Positions 1,689 through 13,087 of a DNA stretch of 64,000 nt are shown here, one piece after another. The stretch comes from Terriglobia bacterium. Lineage in GTDB: Bacteria; Acidobacteriota; Terriglobia; Terriglobales; Acidobacteriaceae. The translations under genes were made by a program, and so were the position numbers. The notes beneath the pieces were generated by a model that was given only the letters and a program-made list of their open reading frames with translations, searched no databases and was not told the origin of the DNA. The stretch spans positions 1 through 64,000 of the forward strand of contig JAJPJE010000012.1 of the NCBI GenBank assembly GCA_021324365.1. The letters run 5' to 3'. Every line of letters starts with the position of its first letter. Within the stretch, counting starts at the first letter, position 1.

Positions 1689-2966
1689 ATGCAGAACTTG
1701 CATTCGGAAATTAAATGCAGTCTCGCCATCGCAGTGGTCGTCGTGGCATTCGGCGGATTGGTGTCGGCGCAGACGCCTTTGCGACTGACCCTCGATGAAG
1801 CCATCGATCTGGCGCTTGCGCACAACCACGTGTTGAAGGCGACAAGAACACAGATCCAGCAAAGCCAGGCGCAAGAAGTCACCGCATCACTGCGACCGAA
1901 TCCCGCGCTGAATGGTGATGCATTCTACATCCCGATTTTTTCGCCATCGGCGTTCAGCTCCGAAAATCTTTCGAACGCTCAGGAATTTGACCTGGGCGTC
2001 AGCTACCTGTTCGAGCGGGGAAAGAAGCGCCAGCGTCGTGTCCAGGCTGCAAAGGACGCGACCGCTGTAACTCGTGACCAAGTCACCGATGCCGAGCGTA
2101 TGCTCATCTTCAATGTCGCCCAGCAGTTTATTCAGGCGCAGCTCGCGGAATCGACACTGGAATTTGCCAACCAGGATCTGGCAGGCTTCCAGCAAACCGT
2201 GAAGATCGGTGAGGAGCAGTATCGCGTCGGGGACATCAGTGAAAGTGACCTGCTGAAGATCAAAGTACAGTTGCTTCAGTTTCAGACCGATGTTGATGCG
2301 GCGCAGGTCGCGAAAGTGCAAGCGCTGGCCAGTCTCCGGCAGTTACTGGGTTACGACGCAGTTCCAGCCAATTATGAAATTGACGGGGAGTTCTCTTTTC
2401 AGCCGCTCAAACTCAATGTTGACGATCTGCAGATGAAGGCGCTGAAGTCGCGCCCCGATCTGCTCGCCGCGGTCGAAGGGGTACGTGCGGCGCAGAGCCA
2501 GTTCCTGCTCGCCAAGGCTAACGGCAAAATGGATCTGACGGCTGCCCTGACCTACACACACGTCACCAATGAGAATCAGATGGGCGCCTCGTTCTCCATA
2601 CCGCTGCCAATTTTTGACCGCAATCAGGGCGAGATCGCGCGGACGCGTTTCGCTCAGACACAGGCGCAGGAAACAGCGCTGGCGGCTAGCGACACCGTTA
2701 TGACTGACGTTCGCAACAACTACGAGGCCTTTCAGACTAACCAAAGCATCGTTCAGCTTTACTTGTCCGGGTATCTCCAGCAGGCAAAGGATTCGCGCGA
2801 TATCAGCGAATATGCGTACAAGCGCGGCGCCGCCAGCCTGCTTGACTTCCTGGACGCCGAACGCAGCTATCGCTCCACCCAGCTTTCTTATCGCCAGGCA
2901 CTCGCCAATTATCTGACTTCGGTGGAGCAGTTGAAGGAAGCGGTAGGCACGAGGACTTTGCCATGA
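1689..2966 (+). CDS. TolC/CzcC-type outer membrane efflux protein
   Basis: This is the outer-membrane channel of a tripartite RND pump. The 425-residue product begins with a signal peptide (hydrophobic core about residues 11-27 ending VSAQ). It then shows the OEP pattern of two related halves with long helical, Gln/Ala-rich segments, starting LTLDEAIDLALAHN and ending near SLLDFLDAERSYRSTQLSYR, the typical OEP C-terminal helix. Its stop overlaps the start of the next gene (ATGA), so it is translated with the adaptor and the pump. Length and order (C-B-A) match CzcCBA-type heavy-metal exporters. Confidence 0.9.
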   Translation: MQNLHSEIKCSLAIAVVVVAFGGLVSAQTPLRLTLDEAIDLALAHNHVLKATRTQIQQSQAQEVTASLRPNPALNGDAFYIPIFSPSAFSSENLSNAQEFDLGVSYLFERGKKRQRRVQAAKDATAVTRDQVTDAERMLIFNVAQQFIQAQLAESTLEFANQDLAGFQQTVKIGEEQYRVGDISESDLLKIKVQLLQFQTDVDAAQVAKVQALASLRQLLGYDAVPANYEIDGEFSFQPLKLNVDDLQMKALKSRPDLLAAVEGVRAAQSQFLLAKANGKMDLTAALTYTHVTNENQMGASFSIPLPIFDRNQGEIARTRFAQTQAQETALAASDTVMTDVRNNYEAFQTNQSIVQLYLSGYLQQAKDSRDISEYAYKRGAASLLDFLDAERSYRSTQLSYRQALANYLTSVEQLKEAVGTRTLP

Positions 2967-4120
2967 TCAACCATTACTCAAAGCGGATCGGGCGTGGGCT
3001 CCCGATAGTCCTAGCGGCTATCCCGATTGTGTTTTTCTCCGGGTGCAGTTCGTCGACGGGGCAAAAACCTGCAGAGTCCGCCGATAAGGCTGCTCTGTTT
3101 TCCATTCCGCAGGATCAGATGTCGCATATCCAGGTCGTCACCGTGGCTCCGTCATCGATCACGCGCAGTCTCCGTCTGACTGGCACTGTGGCGTTTAACG
3201 CGTTCGATACAACTCCGGTGATCACTCAGGTCAGCGGTCCGGTGACGCGCATCGTCGTCGCGCCTGGGCAACAGGTCCATCGCGGACAGCCGCTGCTTTA
3301 CGTAGCCAGCCCCGATTATTCGCAGACGCTCGCGACTTACCTGAAGGCGCGCGACGCGTATCAACTTGCCGACAAGAATTACGCGCGCTCACACGACCTG
3401 TACGAGCATCACGCCATTGCCGAGCGCGACCTTGAAGCTGCCGATTCGGTGCGCACGCAGGCTGCAGCCGACCTGCAAGCCGCCGAGGACTCGTTGAAAG
3501 TTCTGGGCATCACCAATCCCGAGTCGATGATCGGCAAGCCGGTCGCTGCGGAAGTGCCCGTACTCGCACCTATTTCCGGAGAGGCCGTGGAACGGCTGGC
3601 CGCGCCCGGCCAAGTGGTTCAGGCCGGCAACACGCAGGTATTCACCATTTCCAACACCAGCACAATGTGGGTGATGGCCAACATTTATCAGAATGACATG
3701 CCCTTTGTGAGAGTCGGGGATCCAGTGGCGATCACCACCGATTCTTATCCCGGCCTGGAATTTCGCGGAAAGATTGCCTACATCGCTGCTGCCCTCGATC
3801 CGAACACACGCACCCTGCAAGCTCGCATCGAGGTGCGGAATCCCAATGACAAGCTGAAGAAAGATATGTACGTGGTGGCAACGGTGAAGGGCGGAACCAT
3901 TCAAAACGCGCTCCTGGTTCCTAACGCTGCCGTTATGCGCGACGCCGAGAACCAACCGTTCGTATATGTCATGAAAAACGACAATCACTTCGCGCGCCGC
4001 TCCGTGACACTCGGAGAAACCAATGAGGCTGAGACGCAAATCGCCAGCGGAGTCGCACCAGGTGAGCATGTGGTCGGCGACGGTAGCCTATTCCTGCAAT
4101 TCGCGAACTCTCTGCAATGA
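2963..4120 (+). CDS. RND efflux periplasmic adaptor subunit (CzcB/CusB-like, lipoprotein)
   Basis: This membrane-fusion protein links the inner-membrane pump to the outer-membrane channel. Residues 1-30 form a signal with a lipobox-like FFSGC, so it is probably lipid-anchored. A lipoyl/barrel-sandwich half follows (VSGPVTRIVVAPGQQVHRGQPLLYV), then a helical hairpin (about residues 120-180), a second lipoyl half (VLAPISGEAVERLAAPGQVV), and a beta-barrel domain (TMWVMANIYQNDMPFVRVGD). The 385-residue length is normal. Start and stop overlap both neighbours by four bases (ATGA), which indicates a tightly coupled operon. Confidence 0.9.
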   Translation: MINHYSKRIGRGLPIVLAAIPIVFFSGCSSSTGQKPAESADKAALFSIPQDQMSHIQVVTVAPSSITRSLRLTGTVAFNAFDTTPVITQVSGPVTRIVVAPGQQVHRGQPLLYVASPDYSQTLATYLKARDAYQLADKNYARSHDLYEHHAIAERDLEAADSVRTQAAADLQAAEDSLKVLGITNPESMIGKPVAAEVPVLAPISGEAVERLAAPGQVVQAGNTQVFTISNTSTMWVMANIYQNDMPFVRVGDPVAITTDSYPGLEFRGKIAYIAAALDPNTRTLQARIEVRNPNDKLKKDMYVVATVKGGTIQNALLVPNAAVMRDAENQPFVYVMKNDNHFARRSVTLGETNEAETQIASGVAPGEHVVGDGSLFLQFANSLQ

Positions 4121-7100
4121 GCACTGAAAAGAACGAAGCCGCACAAAACGGAAGCAACGGCCGCGGTGGCATGATTCACCGGGTAGTGCAGATGGCCCTT
4201 CGGCAGCGCTTTCTGGTGCTCATGCTGGTGCTGTTCATGGCCATCTGGGGTGTGATCTCCTTCGAGCGTATGCCGGTGGACGCGTATCCCGACCTGGCAC
4301 CTCCAATGGTTGAGATTATTACGCAATGGCCCGGTCACGCCTCCGAGGAAATGGAGCGGCTGGTTACTATCCCGCTCGAAGTCGAGATGAACGGTGCGCC
4401 TGGCCTGGTGGTGATGCGATCCATCACACTGTACGGGTTGTCCGATATCCGCATGACGTTTGAGGACAGCAGCGACAATTATTTCGATCGCGAAGTTGTC
4501 TTCGAGCGACTGGGCGACGCGCAGCTTCCGACTGGTGTAGCGCCGTCGTTGGCGCCGTTGTCCAGTCCGAGCGGATTGGTCTATCGCTACGTGCTGGAGA
4601 GCCCCGATCGCACGCCACAGGAATTGAAGACCATCGAGGACTGGGTGGTCGAGCGCGGTTATAGATCCGTGCCCGGGGTAGCTGACGACTCTGGTTTTGG
4701 CGGCACAACCATGCAATACCAGGTGCTGCTCGATCCAGCGCGTCTGTACGGCTACCACCTGACTGTGCCGCAGGTGATGCAGGCTCTGTCGAACAACAAT
4801 TCCAATACCGGCGGCGGATTCTACTCGCAAGGCGGACAGTTCTATTACGTGCGCGGGCTCGGGCTGGTGCGTGACACCAACGACATCGAGAACGTCGTCG
4901 TTGGCGAGAACAAAGGTGTACCCGTGTTGGTGCGCGACATCGGGCAGGTGGTGATCGGCCACGCGCCTCGCCTGGGCGAGTTTGGGTTCCAGAAAAACGA
5001 TGATGCCGTCGAGGGCGTCATCCTCATGCGGCGCGGCGAGCAGACACAGAACGTGCTTAAGGGCGTGGAGCAGAAGACGCAGGAACTCAATCAGCTCGTG
5101 CTGCCAAAAGACGTAAAGATCCGGCCGTACTACGATCGGAGCGATCTGGTTGATCTGACGACACGGACGGTGGAAGACAACCTCCTCCGGGGCATGATCC
5201 TGGTTTTCATCGTGCTGATCTTCTTCCTCGTCAGCATCCGCGCCGCTGTGATCGTCTCCTTGACGATTCCATTATCGCTGCTATTCTCGTTCATCGTCCT
5301 GCATGCACGCGGGATTTCGGCGAATCTACTCTCCATCGGCGCTATCGATTTCGGCATCATCATCGACGGAACCGTGGTGATGATGGAGAACATCTATCGC
5401 GAGTTGGCGGAACGGTCGGAAACCGAGTACAAGCTGCAGGACGTGATTCTGCTGGCGGCCCGCGACGTGGACCGTCCGATTTTCTATTCGGTAGCGGTAA
5501 TTATTGCCGGCTACCTGCCAATTTACGCCTTGACTGGTCCGTCGGGCACGCTCTTCCATCCCATGGCGGACACGATGTCGTTCGCGCTGCTCGGTGGTTT
5601 AATCCTGACGTTGACTTTAGTACCGGTGCTGGCCTCGTACTGGTTCCGTCGCGGCGTGAAAGAAAAGGTGAACCGTCCGTATGAAGCGATCAAACGCGTT
5701 TACGCACGGCAACTGAACTGGTGCCTGGACAACCGCGCACTCACGCTCATCATTGCGGCAGCCATCTTCGGATTAACTCTCCTGCTCGTTCCCTTCATTG
5801 GAGGGGAATTCATGCCCCACCTCGACGAAGGCGCTCTGTGGGTACGTGCGACGATGCCGTACACCATTTCCTTCGATGAAGCCGCAAAGATTGCGCCGCA
5901 GATCCGCGACATCCTTATGTCATATCCCGAGGTGACCGTGGTCGGCTCGGAACTGGGAAGACCCGACGATGGTACCGATCCGACCGGCTTTTTCAACTGC
6001 GAGTTCTATGTAGGACTGAAGCCGTATGCCGACAAAGCTTGGAGTTCCGGCGATATTCGCGACAAAGAAGAGCTGATCAAATCGATTGACGGTCGATTGC
6101 GGGCCTTCCCCGGTATCATCTTCAACTACACGCAGCCTGCCGAAGACGCGGTGGACGAGGCGCTCACCGGGTTGAAGAGTTCGCTTGCGGTTAAGGTATA
6201 CGGTTCCGATCTGAATGTTTTGCAGGAACAGGCACTCCTGATCAAAAAGACGCTGCAACAGATTCCGGGCTTCACCGAACTGACAGTAGTCCGTGAACTG
6301 GGTCAGCCAAACCTGCAGATCAAGGTGGATCGCGACAAGATCGCTCGGTATGGCGTAAACGTATCGGACGTAGAAGCTGTGATCCAGGCGGCAGTTGGCG
6401 GGCAAGCCGCAACGCAGGTGATCCAGGGCGAGAAGTTGTTCGACCTGGTCGTCCGCATGCAACCACAATTCCGCAGTACGCCGCAACAAATTGGCGGACT
6501 GCTGGTGGGAACACCCGATGGACAGCAGATTCCCCTGAAAGAACTGGCCGACATCAGGGAAGAAAGCGGCGCATCCTTTATCTATCGCGAGAACAACTCG
6601 CGCTACATCGGCGTGCAGTACAGCATTGAAGGGCGCGACCTGGAGCACGCCGTGAGTGACGGTCAGGCAGCGGTCAATAAGGTGGTGCATCTGCCCCAGG
6701 GGTACTGGATGACATGGGGCGGAGAGTACAGCCAGTTTCTGGCGGCGAAGGCGCAGATGAAAGTTATCGGGCCGATAGCAGTGTTCATCATCTTCTTCAT
6801 CCTCTTCGCACTCTACGGGAACTTTAAATTCCCGATAACGATTGCGTTGGGTGTCATCATGACGGAGCCGGTGGGAGCCCTTATCGCGCTGAAACTGACC
6901 GACACGCCGTTCAGCGTTTCTTCGGTGCTCGGTCTTCTCGCCCTCATGGGAGTGTCAGTGGAGACGGCGGTCATTCTGGTTTCGTACATCAACAAGCTCC
7001 GACTGGAAGGAAAGAGTATTCGCGAAGCCACCTACGAAGCGTCCCTGCTGCGCCTCCGACCAATCATGATGACCGCGCTGGTGGCGTGCCTCGGACTGCT

Positions 7101-7257
7101 GCCGGCGGCGATGTCGCACGGCATCGGTTCAGACACCCAAAGGCCATTCGCGATCGTCATCGTTGCCGGATTGCTATCGCGGCTATTGCTGGGCTTCTTC
7201 GTGAATCCGGTGCTCTATGAAATCGTCGCACGTCCTGACGATGTCCTACAGGTTTAA
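4117..7257 (+). CDS. czcA: Heavy-metal RND efflux pump, CzcA type
   Basis: This proton-driven inner-membrane transporter has 1046 residues, the full RND length, with one N-terminal membrane helix, two large periplasmic loops and two blocks of membrane helices. In TM4 it carries DFGIIIDGTVVMMEN with acidic residues at D411 and D417. In the heavy-metal efflux subfamily the DFG...D pattern is typical of CzcA-like exporters of divalent cations (Zn, Co, Cd, Ni), whereas Cu/Ag pumps have a different TM4 signature. The metal choice is therefore inferred as divalent. It closes the three-gene operon. No metal-responsive regulator is visible next to it. Confidence 0.9.
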   Translation: MSTEKNEAAQNGSNGRGGMIHRVVQMALRQRFLVLMLVLFMAIWGVISFERMPVDAYPDLAPPMVEIITQWPGHASEEMERLVTIPLEVEMNGAPGLVVMRSITLYGLSDIRMTFEDSSDNYFDREVVFERLGDAQLPTGVAPSLAPLSSPSGLVYRYVLESPDRTPQELKTIEDWVVERGYRSVPGVADDSGFGGTTMQYQVLLDPARLYGYHLTVPQVMQALSNNNSNTGGGFYSQGGQFYYVRGLGLVRDTNDIENVVVGENKGVPVLVRDIGQVVIGHAPRLGEFGFQKNDDAVEGVILMRRGEQTQNVLKGVEQKTQELNQLVLPKDVKIRPYYDRSDLVDLTTRTVEDNLLRGMILVFIVLIFFLVSIRAAVIVSLTIPLSLLFSFIVLHARGISANLLSIGAIDFGIIIDGTVVMMENIYRELAERSETEYKLQDVILLAARDVDRPIFYSVAVIIAGYLPIYALTGPSGTLFHPMADTMSFALLGGLILTLTLVPVLASYWFRRGVKEKVNRPYEAIKRVYARQLNWCLDNRALTLIIAAAIFGLTLLLVPFIGGEFMPHLDEGALWVRATMPYTISFDEAAKIAPQIRDILMSYPEVTVVGSELGRPDDGTDPTGFFNCEFYVGLKPYADKAWSSGDIRDKEELIKSIDGRLRAFPGIIFNYTQPAEDAVDEALTGLKSSLAVKVYGSDLNVLQEQALLIKKTLQQIPGFTELTVVRELGQPNLQIKVDRDKIARYGVNVSDVEAVIQAAVGGQAATQVIQGEKLFDLVVRMQPQFRSTPQQIGGLLVGTPDGQQIPLKELADIREESGASFIYRENNSRYIGVQYSIEGRDLEHAVSDGQAAVNKVVHLPQGYWMTWGGEYSQFLAAKAQMKVIGPIAVFIIFFILFALYGNFKFPITIALGVIMTEPVGALIALKLTDTPFSVSSVLGLLALMGVSVETAVILVSYINKLRLEGKSIREATYEASLLRLRPIMMTALVACLGLLPAAMSHGIGSDTQRPFAIVIVAGLLSRLLLGFFVNPVLYEIVARPDDVLQV

Positions 7258-9503: not shown

Positions 9504-9953
9504 TTACGCGGTAGTCTGTTGCTCCGCCGCTTGCAAGAGCCATCGCTCCATCTGCTCGTGTCCGACTAGTCCGGCTTGCTGAAAAACTAGACGTCCATCA
9601 CGAAAGACAGCGAAATTCGGAATGCCCTGAACGCGAAATTGTGCTGCCAACTCCGGGTGGCGTTCCGTATCCACTTTCACGACGATTGCGCGCCCCGCGA
9701 GATCGGCGGCTGTTTGTGCAACCTCGGGTGCGGCCATTCGGCACGGGCCGCACCATGCCGCCCAGAAATCCACCAGCACGGGAACACGAGCATTGCTGAT
9801 AATTTGATCGAAAGACTCTCGATCGGCGGCAATCGGCTCGGCCATCGGAGGCAAAGTAGCCTTGCAAGCGCCGCAACGTCCGGTGTCACTCAGATGTTTT
9901 GCCGGAACTCGATTCTTCGCACCACATTTCTGACACGAACGGACAATGGCCAT
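9504..9953 (-). CDS. trxC: Thioredoxin with N-terminal zinc finger (TrxC/thioredoxin-2 type)
   Basis: This disulfide reductase of 149 residues has an N-terminal zinc ribbon with two Cys pairs (CQKCG and CGAC) and a thioredoxin fold with the active site WCGPC. That combination defines thioredoxin 2. The start at 9953 is supported by a GGGAGG ribosome binding site and by the fit of the zinc finger to the start; a longer frame upstream has no support. It lies 71 bases downstream of the peptidase gene of the RiPP-like locus on the same strand, so co-transcription is possible. The zinc-finger form often responds to oxidative stress. Confidence 0.92.
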   Translation of the reverse strand: MAIVRSCQKCGAKNRVPAKHLSDTGRCGACKATLPPMAEPIAADRESFDQIISNARVPVLVDFWAAWCGPCRMAAPEVAQTAADLAGRAIVVKVDTERHPELAAQFRVQGIPNFAVFRDGRLVFQQAGLVGHEQMERWLLQAAEQQTTA

Positions 9954-10024
9954 GACAGCCTCCCGTTGTGAAGATGCGAAATTAAGAGAAGGGGCGCAGG
10001 AAAATGTTCCCCATCTGTTTTGGC

Positions 10025-10462
10025 TCAGGAGCGGAGCCGTTCCAGAACGGGCGGAAGCAGCCGGAACTGGACTGCTTTTCGGATCCAGCTCAGCACTGTT
10101 CTGGGCACGCGTTCCGTCACCCGCGCGAGACCCAGTAACTCGGCGCAATTCACAGCAGGATCGTCATAGGCGAGGGCATCGCCACGAGTGATCAGGACGG
10201 GAACTCCGGCGACAAGGTCTTGGCGCAGCACGCGATGTACGAAGATGCGCTCGTCGCGGCTAAACGCCACAATGTCATTTACGTTAACCTCAGGTATTGT
10301 TGCCGTTCGAACCTCAACCACGTCACCCGGCCAGAGCGCCGGCAACATGCTGGTTCCTGTCACGCATAGAGATGCGCGTCCGTACGAACGCAATGCTGCT
10401 ATGAACAGCCGGCATTTCTGGCGATGGTCAGCGTTTACGACAACCTGCGGTTGAAGCGACAT
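10025..10462 (-). CDS. Soluble S24/S26 signal-peptidase-like protease of RiPP-like locus
   Basis: The 145-residue product matches the catalytic core of the signal-peptidase/LexA fold. The nucleophile region is GTSMLPALWPGD (S38), and a second box is NDIVAFSRDERIFVHRVL. H76 occupies the place where the Sec11-like branch uses His rather than Lys. It has no membrane helix, so unlike true signal peptidases it should work in the cytosol. The ATG at 10462 lies inside the 3' end of the small precursor gene (28-base overlap, different frame). From the family and the neighbours I infer leader removal from the modified peptide; this is not proven. Confidence 0.75.
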   Translation of the reverse strand: MSLQPQVVVNADHRQKCRLFIAALRSYGRASLCVTGTSMLPALWPGDVVEVRTATIPEVNVNDIVAFSRDERIFVHRVLRQDLVAGVPVLITRGDALAYDDPAVNCAELLGLARVTERVPRTVLSWIRKAVQFRLLPPVLERLRS

Positions 10463-10602
10463 TGTGCCTGTGTGGTCTGAACTTTTCCGCAAGCTAGAGC
10501 CATTGTCTCGAAGACCTTCTCATGACGGAATGAAGGCTTCTCGTAGGGACGCTTGGCCGGAACTGTCGGCTTGTCGTCGGACTGATTCGAATCACCCACC
10601 AT
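10435..10602 (-). CDS. Candidate RiPP precursor peptide (55 aa)
   Basis: This small frame lies between the radical SAM gene and the peptidase gene. ATG at 10602 follows GGAG closely, and an in-frame TGA sits four codons upstream, so the start is well constrained. The peptide has a polar, Asp-containing N-terminus, then PYEKPSF (residues 19-25), then VFETMALACGK (30-40) and a tail with C48 and TQAQC. YxxPx(L/F) is the leader motif recognised by PqqD-like RRE proteins in lasso-peptide systems, which fits the adjacent PqqD homologue. The likely core is the C-terminal part with two Cys (C38, C48) and Thr/Gln. Expression and modification are inference. Confidence 0.65.
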   Translation of the reverse strand: MVGDSNQSDDKPTVPAKRPYEKPSFRHEKVFETMALACGKVQTTQAQCRFNRRLS

Positions 10603-10696: not shown

Positions 10697-11779
10697 TTAC
10701 CAGAGCGCTTGAATCTGGACGAGTGGAGCTTGCGCAACTTCTGGTCCAGAACTCATCTCCGCCAGCCCTGCTTTTATCAGAGACTTCTCGCAATCCGCGG
10801 ATGACGGCCCGCGCATGTCGCCTTCCATATACGCCAGGCCGGGGCAGCGCGTACAGCCAGACACATGATTGCATCCAGAACAGGTGTGCAGATCGCGAAC
10901 CCGGATGCTGCGAATCTGATTCATCTGCTTGGAGTGCAGCCAGACATCCTCGAGCGACTGCTGGCGTAGATTCCCGCAAGCTACCGGAAACTGCACGCAA
11001 GGGAACACATCGCCGTAAGGCGACACGTATACGGAAGTATGCCCCGCGCTGCACGGGACGCTCTCGAGCAGATCGTCCGTGACCGGACCGGAAGGTCTAC
11101 AGAACTCGTTCACATCTCCAACTAGAGTCGAATCCTGAAAAACTCTCGCAATGTCGGGCTGAGCGATTCGATGCTTCACGACTGACGCGTCGCCGTCCAT
11201 CTTTGGCGTGATCGTCGGGTCCATGGTGAACTTTACGCCCAGTTCCGCTGCTAGCGTTTGCACTTGGGGATAGTCGACGATATTCGCACGCATCAAGGGG
11301 CATGAGATCACCGTGTTCAGTCCCTGATCGCGCAAGAAACGTATCGCTTTAAGGGAACGATCGAGTGATCCGCCAACCTTGGTGATCGCATCATGCACGT
11401 CTGCGCGGTGCGAATAAATGCTGATCTGGACTTCGCCGATATGCAGTTCACGCAACCGTTCCGCCTGCTCCGGGCCGATGAGCATACCATTGGTCTTGAT
11501 TTTGACGGCGAACATCAACGAACGTGCGTAAGTCAGAATTTCAAAAAAATCTTTTCGCAGGAACGGCTCGCCGCCACTAAGAGTAAGAATCAGCGTGCCA
11601 GTCGCCGCGGCTTGCTGCAGCACTCGCTTGATCTCATCGGTGGTCATTTCGCCGTGGTCATCGTGGTCGAGATAACAGTGCACGCAGCGTTCGTTGCAGC
11701 GGTAAGTAACGTCGAGGTGCAGGCTAAAGGGGATGCCAAGTGAAAGTGCGCGCGCGGTGACTTCGTCCATCAAACTCAC
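10697..11779 (-). CDS. Radical SAM/SPASM peptide-modifying enzyme
   Basis: The iron-sulfur site that cleaves S-adenosylmethionine is seen in CNERCVHC (CX3CX2C), followed by GGEPFLR and the TNG motif. The C-terminal SPASM region is Cys-rich (PCSAGH, PCVQF, CSGC, CTRC, DCEKS) and should hold auxiliary clusters, as in enzymes that modify ribosomal peptides. I chose GTG at 11779: GGAG lies eight bases upstream, and GTG overlaps the PqqD stop as GTGA. ATG at 11770 has poorer spacing. The product is 360 residues. The chemistry (thioether, C-C link, epimerisation) cannot be told from sequence. Confidence 0.88.
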   Translation of the reverse strand: MSLMDEVTARALSLGIPFSLHLDVTYRCNERCVHCYLDHDDHGEMTTDEIKRVLQQAAATGTLILTLSGGEPFLRKDFFEILTYARSLMFAVKIKTNGMLIGPEQAERLRELHIGEVQISIYSHRADVHDAITKVGGSLDRSLKAIRFLRDQGLNTVISCPLMRANIVDYPQVQTLAAELGVKFTMDPTITPKMDGDASVVKHRIAQPDIARVFQDSTLVGDVNEFCRPSGPVTDDLLESVPCSAGHTSVYVSPYGDVFPCVQFPVACGNLRQQSLEDVWLHSKQMNQIRSIRVRDLHTCSGCNHVSGCTRCPGLAYMEGDMRGPSSADCEKSLIKAGLAEMSSGPEVAQAPLVQIQALW

Positions 11780-12105
11780 AGTTTCGTCTCCGGCGTCGGC
11801 AAAACAACCTGCGGATTTCGAGGCAGCGGCTGTTCCGAGACCTGCAGGATGCCGTGCTGCGAACCTTCCCTGACGAATGCCGCGGCGTCCTCCAGTGCAG
11901 CATCGAATCCCACTTCGAACTCCGCACACACTTGGTTACGAACAATCTGTTCCAAAGTGCTATCGCCATCCGCGGAATTCCATATGCAACTCGCCACCGC
12001 GTTTAACGTGAAGAGACTGGAATCTTCCGGGCTGATCACCACAATTTCGCCGCCCATCATGCGGGCTGCCACTGCCTCGCTGCGCCCTACGTAAAGCGAT
12101 CTCAT
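11776..12105 (-). CDS. PqqD-like RiPP recognition protein
   Basis: This is a 109-residue PqqD-family protein, the winged-helix RRE that holds a leader peptide for its modifying enzyme. The visible PqqD features are GGEIVVISPEDSSLFTLNAVASCIWNSADGDST (residues about 17-49) followed by a helix with DAALEDAAAFVREG. The ATG at 12105 overlaps the stop of the kinase-like gene (ATGA), and the gene overlaps the radical SAM start by four bases, so the three are translationally coupled. A longer start at 12120 is possible. The YxxPxF motif of the nearby small peptide is the probable ligand. Confidence 0.82.
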   Translation of the reverse strand: MRSLYVGRSEAVAARMMGGEIVVISPEDSSLFTLNAVASCIWNSADGDSTLEQIVRNQVCAEFEVGFDAALEDAAAFVREGSQHGILQVSEQPLPRNPQVVLPTPETKL

Positions 12106-12938
12106 GCGACTAGTTTCCATATCTCCGGATTCGGAAGGAATTCCATTTGCCTGACCGGCACGATTCTTATGAAGCGCAACGCCGCCGCGAGTACTCGCTC
12201 CAGCCAAAGCGGTTCTTTGGCAAAAAACAGAATATTACGCATTACCGCGTGAAGGGCCGATGATCTAACCATGGCGCTGATGCGATTCAGTGGCGCGTGT
12301 CGCAGAATGAACGTCGCGTCCAGCGGTGCCGAGATCGCCTCCCCGGGACGCGCCAATTCGCCATAGAACGGTGTTCCGAATGCACGGTACGCCTCGCCAT
12401 CCGGCAGCACAAAGGAAATCTCATCGCTGAGAAGATGTACGGAACTCCCGGCCAGCCGGCACATGGTTGTTTTGCCGGAACCGGACGGTCCGGCGAATAG
12501 ATACGCTTTATTCCCCGTTATGGCGCTTGCCGAGTGGACGAGAAAACCACCGCGTTCGACCAGGAGCAAGGAATATACGACACGCAAAACCGAATCAATC
12601 GCATATGGACTCGGCGCCTGCTCGATCCGGCCGCGCCCAGTCTTCATGTTCCAGTCGGCGCGAAAATCTCCGCGACGCATGTAGACAGATGAGCCAGTTG
12701 TCTGAACCGCAAGATCTTCGTCGGGATCCTCTGTCATCCGCTGCAAACTGATATCGAATGCCGCTACCGTGTTGCGGGTGCGAGATTGAAATCCGGCGTA
12801 ACGCTGCTCCAGCAGCTTCAGAAATTGCGGATCGTCTACGCGCAGACAGATAGCCAGACCGCCGACGTCGACCGTAAAGCTGGAGTTCGCGGCGTTGGTT
12901 GTCTTGCGCTCGGACTCTCGAGAGCAAAGGCTCGCCAT
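12102..12938 (-). CDS. HPr kinase/HprK-like P-loop ATPase
   Basis: The 278-residue protein has a Walker A loop GPSGSGKTT in the middle, preceded by LLLVERGGFLVHSAS and followed by SDEISFV as a Walker-B-like acidic pair. This is the layout of the HPr-Ser kinase C-terminal domain as found in RiPP loci, for example phosphorylated lasso peptides such as paeninodin. It starts the operon HprK-PqqD-rSAM. It may phosphorylate the precursor or use ATP in another step; this is inference. The start is uncertain: ATG at 12938 lacks a strong ribosome binding site and a TTG at 12968 is an alternative. Confidence 0.78.
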   Translation of the reverse strand: MASLCSRESERKTTNAANSSFTVDVGGLAICLRVDDPQFLKLLEQRYAGFQSRTRNTVAAFDISLQRMTEDPDEDLAVQTTGSSVYMRRGDFRADWNMKTGRGRIEQAPSPYAIDSVLRVVYSLLLVERGGFLVHSASAITGNKAYLFAGPSGSGKTTMCRLAGSSVHLLSDEISFVLPDGEAYRAFGTPFYGELARPGEAISAPLDATFILRHAPLNRISAMVRSSALHAVMRNILFFAKEPLWLERVLAAALRFIRIVPVRQMEFLPNPEIWKLVA

Positions 12939-13087
12939 TAAGGGTAGTTGAAGGGTACCCGAGGCCAAAACCTCATTGCAAAGGGAATATGTCGGGACGA
13001 ACCTGCGTATGCATGGGCGGTGGGCTGATGACAGTTATCCTTATCCATTCACCCCGTCTATGCCGGGCGGCGTAGAATTGTGCCGTT

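Follow-up and report, generated by a model that had tools for sequence, protein, structure and literature searches.

Which substrate is served by a radical SAM enzyme, a PqqD-like protein and an HprK-like kinase whose genes stand side by side, as they do in the 64,000-nucleotide stretch of a Terriglobia bacterium analyzed here (the window, meaning the whole stretch)? An original prediction had pointed at a short open frame next to these genes as a candidate RiPP precursor. Our analysis supports this reading, with the modification itself being predicted, and adds three features missed at the time: an invariant C-terminal serine, a kinase link and a propeller partner. We consider it probable that the peptide, referred to below as PEP, is a RiPP precursor of a class without description in the open literature searched, which would be gripped by PqqD, modified by the radical SAM enzyme, phosphorylated at Ser55, cut by an S26-type peptidase and partnered with a secreted propeller.

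The short frame and its gene neighborhood

The PEP frame runs on the minus strand, a detail the original prediction had not given, from an ATG at 10602 to a stop at 10437-10435, and encodes the 55 residues MVGDSNQSDDKPTVPAKRPYEKPSFRHEKVFETMALACGKVQTTQAQCRFNRRLS. The GGAG box claimed near the ATG is present at 10609-10606, with a short spacing of 3 nt; the two cysteines occupy residues 38 and 48, as described, and the PqqD homologue said to lie two genes away is found upstream, with the radical SAM gene in between. The reported overlap with the S24/S26-type peptidase gene amounts to 28 nt for an ATG start at 10462, or 58 nt for a TTG start at 10492. On the minus strand the genes are lined up as in an operon, in the order HprK-like kinase, PqqD, radical SAM/SPASM enzyme, 55-residue peptide and S24/S26-type peptidase; a thioredoxin comes next. 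The features discussed are the following.

10025 to 10492, minus strand: S26/S24-type peptidase, apparently soluble, predicted leader peptidase, likely ATG 10462 (TIGR02228 and PF00717, sub-threshold)
10435 to 10602, minus strand: PEP, 55-residue precursor peptide, stop codon included (homologue searches, conservation, codon comparison)
10438 to 10440, minus strand: codon of the C-terminal Ser55, predicted phosphorylation site (Ser-ended peptides, distant relatives included; HprK-like kinase)
10438 to 10491, minus strand: predicted core, residues 38-55, CGKVQTTQAQCRFNRRLS (conservation of both Cys, of K3 of the core and of the C-terminal Ser)
10492 to 10602, minus strand: predicted leader, residues 1-37, ending in VFETMALA (conserved YxxP and ET.AL.C blocks)
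10534 to 10545, minus strand: YEKP, residues 20-23, YxxP leader motif (conserved at a fixed distance to ET)
10697 to 11929, minus strand: radical SAM/SPASM enzyme, likely ATG 11770 (PF04055 2e-24, PF13186 3e-12)
11776 to 12207, minus strand: PqqD-like RRE protein (PF05402 4e-12)
12102 to 12968, minus strand: HprK/PEPCK-fold kinase, ScmC-like (TIGR04249 2e-10, below cut-off)

The thioredoxin (9504-10148) was rejected as a cassette member, having no relative among the neighbors of other loci. PEP is without a match in Pfam, NCBIfam or PHROGs and without a description in the open literature searched; radical SAM RiPP surveys may include parts of it.

Homologues of PEP were found by tblastn at 10 places in 60 related genomes, with E values of 4e-16 to 3e-6, far beyond chance. 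Cassette genes lie close by at all ten places, and at seven of them relatives of the S26 peptidase, HprK, PqqD and the radical SAM enzyme are all near PEP. Locus L026 has S26, HprK and radical SAM relatives, with the PqqD match alone absent; at L029 PqqD is the only cassette gene near PEP within the stretch read, and the distant locus L031 carries all four genes in a different order. Eight aligned peptides share the invariant residues Y20, P23, E28, E32, T33, A35, L36, C38, K40, C48 and S55.

A profile scan of GTDB genomes yielded 70 distinct PEP loci. Homologues occur in Acidobacteriota, Pseudomonadota, Rokubacteria, Myxococcota, Armatimonadota and Elusimicrobia, the loci being distributed over Acidobacteriota, Burkholderiales, Thermomonas (with the cultured carriers T. 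beijingensis, L069, and T. flagellata, L087) and other Lysobacterales, Rokuibacteriota, Myxococcales, Chthonomonadia/HR16 and Elusimicrobia, and the gene order PEP-S26-HprK-PqqD-radical SAM recurs across phyla. Recurrence of the small frame at other loci and conservation of its amino acids had been set beforehand as the test of the idea, which the outcome did not refute: at 52 of the 70 loci at least two cassette genes lie within 6 kb of the frame. The scan used the pattern [VI][FY]ET[MT]AL[ASH]C, so that conservation within these nine residues, C38 included, is conditioned by the search, while conservation outside them is unconditioned. The four residues singled out by the original prediction are indeed conserved: among 75 distinct peptides, G39 is found in 67, K40 in 74, C48 in 75 and C38, conditioned by the pattern, in 75. 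C38 is also invariant in the eight homologues from the whole-length search, which is free of the pattern. Outside the pattern, every one of the 75 peptides ends in Ser; the last Cys stands seven residues from the C-terminal end in 66 of them. Profile searching also reached more distant peptides, MKKPYEKPAIVHTEKIEARAVSCSKSNDACGTGPLTS among them, in which YxxP, C-x-K, the second Cys and the Ser at the end are retained. A set of distant relatives (L039-L046, L050) follows the form MKKxYEKPxIxHTExxEARAVxCxKxxxxCxxGPxxS, again Ser-ended, and several adjoin radical SAM and PqqD genes. At L047 (G130:C29), a second peptide copy is without the second Cys and the final Ser in its C-terminal half and looks decayed.

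Codon evolution of PEP shows purifying selection. Across 54 homologous coding sequences pN is 0.29 and pS about 0.76, the latter near saturation, and pN/pS is 0.24 in the leader part and 0.53 in the core. The frame is short and overlaps the next gene, as a chance open frame without product might, but homologues, synteny and purifying selection rule this out to the point of practical certainty and establish the frame as genuine.

From leader to predicted mature peptide

As judged from sequence, PEP is the precursor of a four-enzyme cassette composed of the HprK-like kinase, PqqD, the radical SAM/SPASM enzyme and the S26-type peptidase, all of which have intact catalytic motifs. The PqqD gene gives the sole PqqD match in the genome and therefore most likely serves the PEP leader. 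By the precedent of lasso B1 proteins, YEKP is the predicted contact of PqqD as the RRE, which would grip the leader at Y20xxP23. YxxP is found in 72 of the 75 distinct peptides, always 11 residues ahead of the ET pair; of the YxxPxF motif originally proposed this part stands, whereas conservation is absent at the position following PxF.

The likely start of the radical SAM gene, ATG 11770, sits just past the PqqD stop. Its CxxxCxxC motif (C78/C82/C85) and its SPASM cysteines are conserved, and a relative of the enzyme is present in all nine genomes with PEP. Among proteins of solved structure, sequence comparison relates the enzyme to SkfB and PqqE (6c8v), and the mycofactocin maturase is among the best NCBIfam matches in the cassette search. 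The invariant C38, K40 and C48 are candidates for the radical SAM reaction. The enzyme would act on the part of the core near C38-G-K40 and C48, where the simplest product would be a crosslink of the thioether or carbon-carbon type.

The peptidase hints at where the leader ends. Its residues Ser48, His86 and Asp105 are invariant in 20 of 20 aligned relatives, in an order that fits the S26 Ser/His (SEC11, archaeal) type, and in profile comparison its match to SEC11C (E 4e-8) ranks above that to LexA. A 19-residue hydrophobic stretch above 1.6 is lacking in 18 of the 20 sequences, by simple hydropathy only. In 74 of the 75 peptides A-L-A or A-L-S precedes C38, one peptide having His there. This reads as an A-x-A signal-peptidase site, which would fit an S26-type enzyme, although the match of enzyme to site is one of resemblance only. 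Because A35-L36-[AS]37 precedes C38 and an S26-type peptidase is encoded next to PEP, we infer cleavage after A37. The core, placed after residue 35 in the original prediction, thus likely starts at C38, following A-L-A. The apparently soluble Ser/His peptidase would cut A35-L36-A37|C38 and release a basic peptide, the predicted 18-residue core CGKVQTTQAQCRFNRRLS; the core has this length in 57 of the 75 distinct peptides.

The kinase has an invariant Walker A (residues 160-168), His145 and D182-E183. Sequence and profile searches gave no HprK relative of known structure for it, and this relationship emerged from fold comparison: the AlphaFold model (pLDDT 88.6) matches PEPCK (Z 15) and HprK/P, which make up nearly all of its best Foldseek matches. 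The modeled fold, Walker A and catalytic residues are those of the HprK/PEPCK kinase superfamily. The lasso peptide paeninodin offers a precedent: its precursor is phosphorylated at the C-terminal Ser by an HPr-kinase homologue that shows little length specificity (PMC8498205). An invariant C-terminal Ser next to a kinase of this fold leads us to predict the same here, so that the HprK-like kinase would phosphorylate Ser55. The pseudomycoidin system goes one step further, with a nucleotidyltransferase that attaches hexoses to this phosphate (PMC8498205). Nucleotidyltransferase-type genes are found near PEP in about 19 loci, with PF14907 detected in the three members tested (L054:2846-4054(-), L093:2913-4112(-) and L107:2192-3448), and these proteins may extend the phosphoserine in the manner of pseudomycoidin. 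No HprK was seen within reach in the Armatimonadota loci, though their peptides are also Ser-ended. At the loci of this type with C-G-K-C peptides (L103, L110, L115-L117), S26 and PqqD genes adjoin PEP and a kinase was not seen within reach; of four genomes searched, three carry the radical SAM gene at another place, and in that of L116 it was not found.

A secreted propeller and the fate of the product

Many PEP loci share a further gene, which encodes a secreted protein of 600-1000 residues with an N-terminal hydrophobic stretch in most members and no Pfam match for most. Such neighbors of about 620 residues, entertained as asparagine synthetases, likewise had no Pfam match and proved to be propellers. 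Members of the family include L061:3002-4903, L064:6478-8328, L123 at G000:C123:40374-42263 and L124 at G000:C70:1885-3678. In profile comparison, the family matches BamB and, at E 8e-21, designed PQQ-like propellers. Its model is of moderate quality (pTM 0.73, mean pLDDT 65.6); structural alignment gives Z 29.5 for Cake8, 25.7-25.9 for YxaL and about 25 for BamB. On this model, the protein is an eight-bladed propeller of PQQ/BamB-like fold. Its C-terminus is conserved as AVKLTQSGLQ or similar.

At 44 of the 70 loci a propeller gene stands no more than 6 kb from PEP, with a second, Rokubacteria-type set counted in, and 63 loci have a propeller gene, two or more cassette genes, or both. In 61 genomes the peptide occurs in 9, the propeller in 10 and both in 8 (Fisher p=1.3e-7, within family 1.2e-6, genome relatedness being ignored). 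Both propellers of the present genome are on contigs other than that of PEP, so the association is not one of linkage alone. It is statistical and genomic, not physical. At L061, L064, L067, L070, L071 and L086, PEP is directly upstream of the propeller without a local cassette; the cassette is elsewhere in these genomes, and such propeller-adjacent peptides would therefore be modified in trans. Genome G009 (L147, L148) has a complete cassette and a propeller with no recognizable peptide found; either the peptide has diverged too far or the assembly does not contain it. At L149 (G014:C6) the radical SAM gene is split by a frameshift, the kinase is truncated and the peptide was not found, which fits joint decay.

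In our reading, the mature peptide would leave the cell and work with the secreted propeller as a bound small subunit, ligand or cofactor. More specifically, and tentatively, the phosphorylated, radical SAM-crosslinked peptide might, instead of being released as an antibiotic, be a built-in small subunit or cofactor of this new family of secreted eight-bladed propellers, one cassette acting in trans on peptides whose genes adjoin those of the propellers. As a covalent peptide link, free propeller cysteines were rejected, since mature Cys counts are even in most members and apparently paired.

A secreted antimicrobial or signal peptide, with the propeller as receptor, carrier or immunity protein and not as a stable partner, is in our view a rather unlikely product. 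The small, basic core with two Cys would suit such a role, as would the relationship of the radical SAM enzyme to the sactipeptide maturase SkfB. At eight acidobacterial loci (L054, L077, L085, L089, L091-L094) genes for an ABC ATPase and an ABC-2 permease lie directly upstream of PEP, a possible exporter that is not in all carriers. However, the permease is absent from the present genome and found in genomes without PEP, which excludes it as an obligate partner; in contrast to the propeller, it does not track the peptide across genomes. PEP carriers have neither a dedicated exporter in common nor, across loci, a common immunity gene, and the core is highly conserved across phyla, unlike most bacteriocins. 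Elsewhere in the window (2963-7257), genes for an HlyD-type adaptor and an RND-type efflux pump were read from translation.

We regard it as improbable that PEP is a scaffold out of which a redox cofactor or other small molecule is cut, in the manner of PQQ or mycofactocin, for use by the PQQ-like propeller. PqqD, the PqqE-like radical SAM enzyme with its match to 6c8v, the mycofactocin maturase match and the eight-bladed PQQ-like propeller all point in this direction. Yet none of the 75 cores contains Tyr or Trp, so there is no aromatic quinone precursor; the core is conserved in its full length and at its far C-terminal end, and the cassette is without further cofactor enzymes.

Relation to known systems

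Short precursors with a leader motif beside an RRE protein and a modifying enzyme are common to PEP and RRE-dependent RiPPs. Lasso peptides also combine a YxxP leader with a standalone RRE; that of PEP is close to lasso PqqD models, and the kinase and C-terminal Ser recall paeninodin-like clusters. Still, the B2 protease (PF13471) is absent genome-wide, and no asparagine-synthetase-like cyclase is found among the cassette proteins of the window or the conserved neighbors, so PEP is not a lasso peptide; a radical SAM enzyme stands in the cassette instead, and with Asp or Glu for a macrolactam in only 19 of the 75 cores, we give the lasso assignment very little credence. The paeninodin and pseudomycoidin systems (PMC8498205) share with PEP the HPr-kinase homologue, the C-terminal Ser and, in some loci, the nucleotidyltransferase, whereas the PEP cassette has a radical SAM/SPASM enzyme and an S26-type peptidase and is without B2 protease and cyclase.

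The SynChlorMet system (ScmC, ScmD, ScmE, ScmF; TIGR04248-04251) likewise combines an HprK-like kinase (ScmC), a PqqD-like protein (ScmD) and radical SAM/SPASM proteins, of which it has two, unlike the PEP cassette. Among NCBIfam models, the PEP kinase matches ScmC best. Although the parts are similar, an assignment to SynChlorMet was rejected, all scores falling far below the curated cut-offs (bits/cut-off: ScmC 40.6/125, ScmD 27.3/100, ScmE 105.7/400, ScmF 80/400). To our knowledge, the SynChlorMet precursor was left unnamed by its authors. PEP, in turn, would supply the substrate so far missing from a widespread radical SAM/PqqD/HprK cassette.

Sactipeptides, ranthipeptides and streptococcal WGK peptides (SkfB, AlbA, WgkB) share with PEP a radical SAM/SPASM maturase and a Cys-containing core, in which PEP has two invariant Cys. 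The X-G-K motif is reminiscent of streptococcal WGK, but reads CGK; the radical SAM enzyme scores far under the cut-offs of the SkfB, AlbA and WgkB models, and a kinase and an S26-type peptidase are present. The PEP-linked propeller shares its fold with BamB, YxaL and designed PQQ-like propellers (Z 25-29.5, profile E 8e-21), from which it differs by an identity of 12-16% and by its tie to a peptide cassette. The product of PEP is in this way linked, on genomic grounds, to a secreted propeller family without annotation.

In quinohemoprotein amine dehydrogenase (QHNDH), the beta subunit is a propeller. Its gamma subunit QhpC, a small leader-bearing peptide, is crosslinked by the radical SAM enzyme QhpD, cut by a dedicated protease and built into an extracytoplasmic complex, a maturation that the PEP system resembles in plan (PMC7876137). 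In contrast, the PEP core is without Trp (0/75), the residue that gives rise to the CTQ cofactor of QHNDH, cytochrome subunit and flavoprotein have no counterpart, and an RRE and a kinase are added. PEP represents an unfamiliar kind of predicted enzyme-modified peptide of soil Acidobacteria and several other phyla, encoded by a previously overlooked gene. Its system unites radical SAM chemistry and an unusual, apparently soluble enzyme resembling signal peptidases with the kinase logic of lasso-type clusters, directed at a C-terminal Ser.
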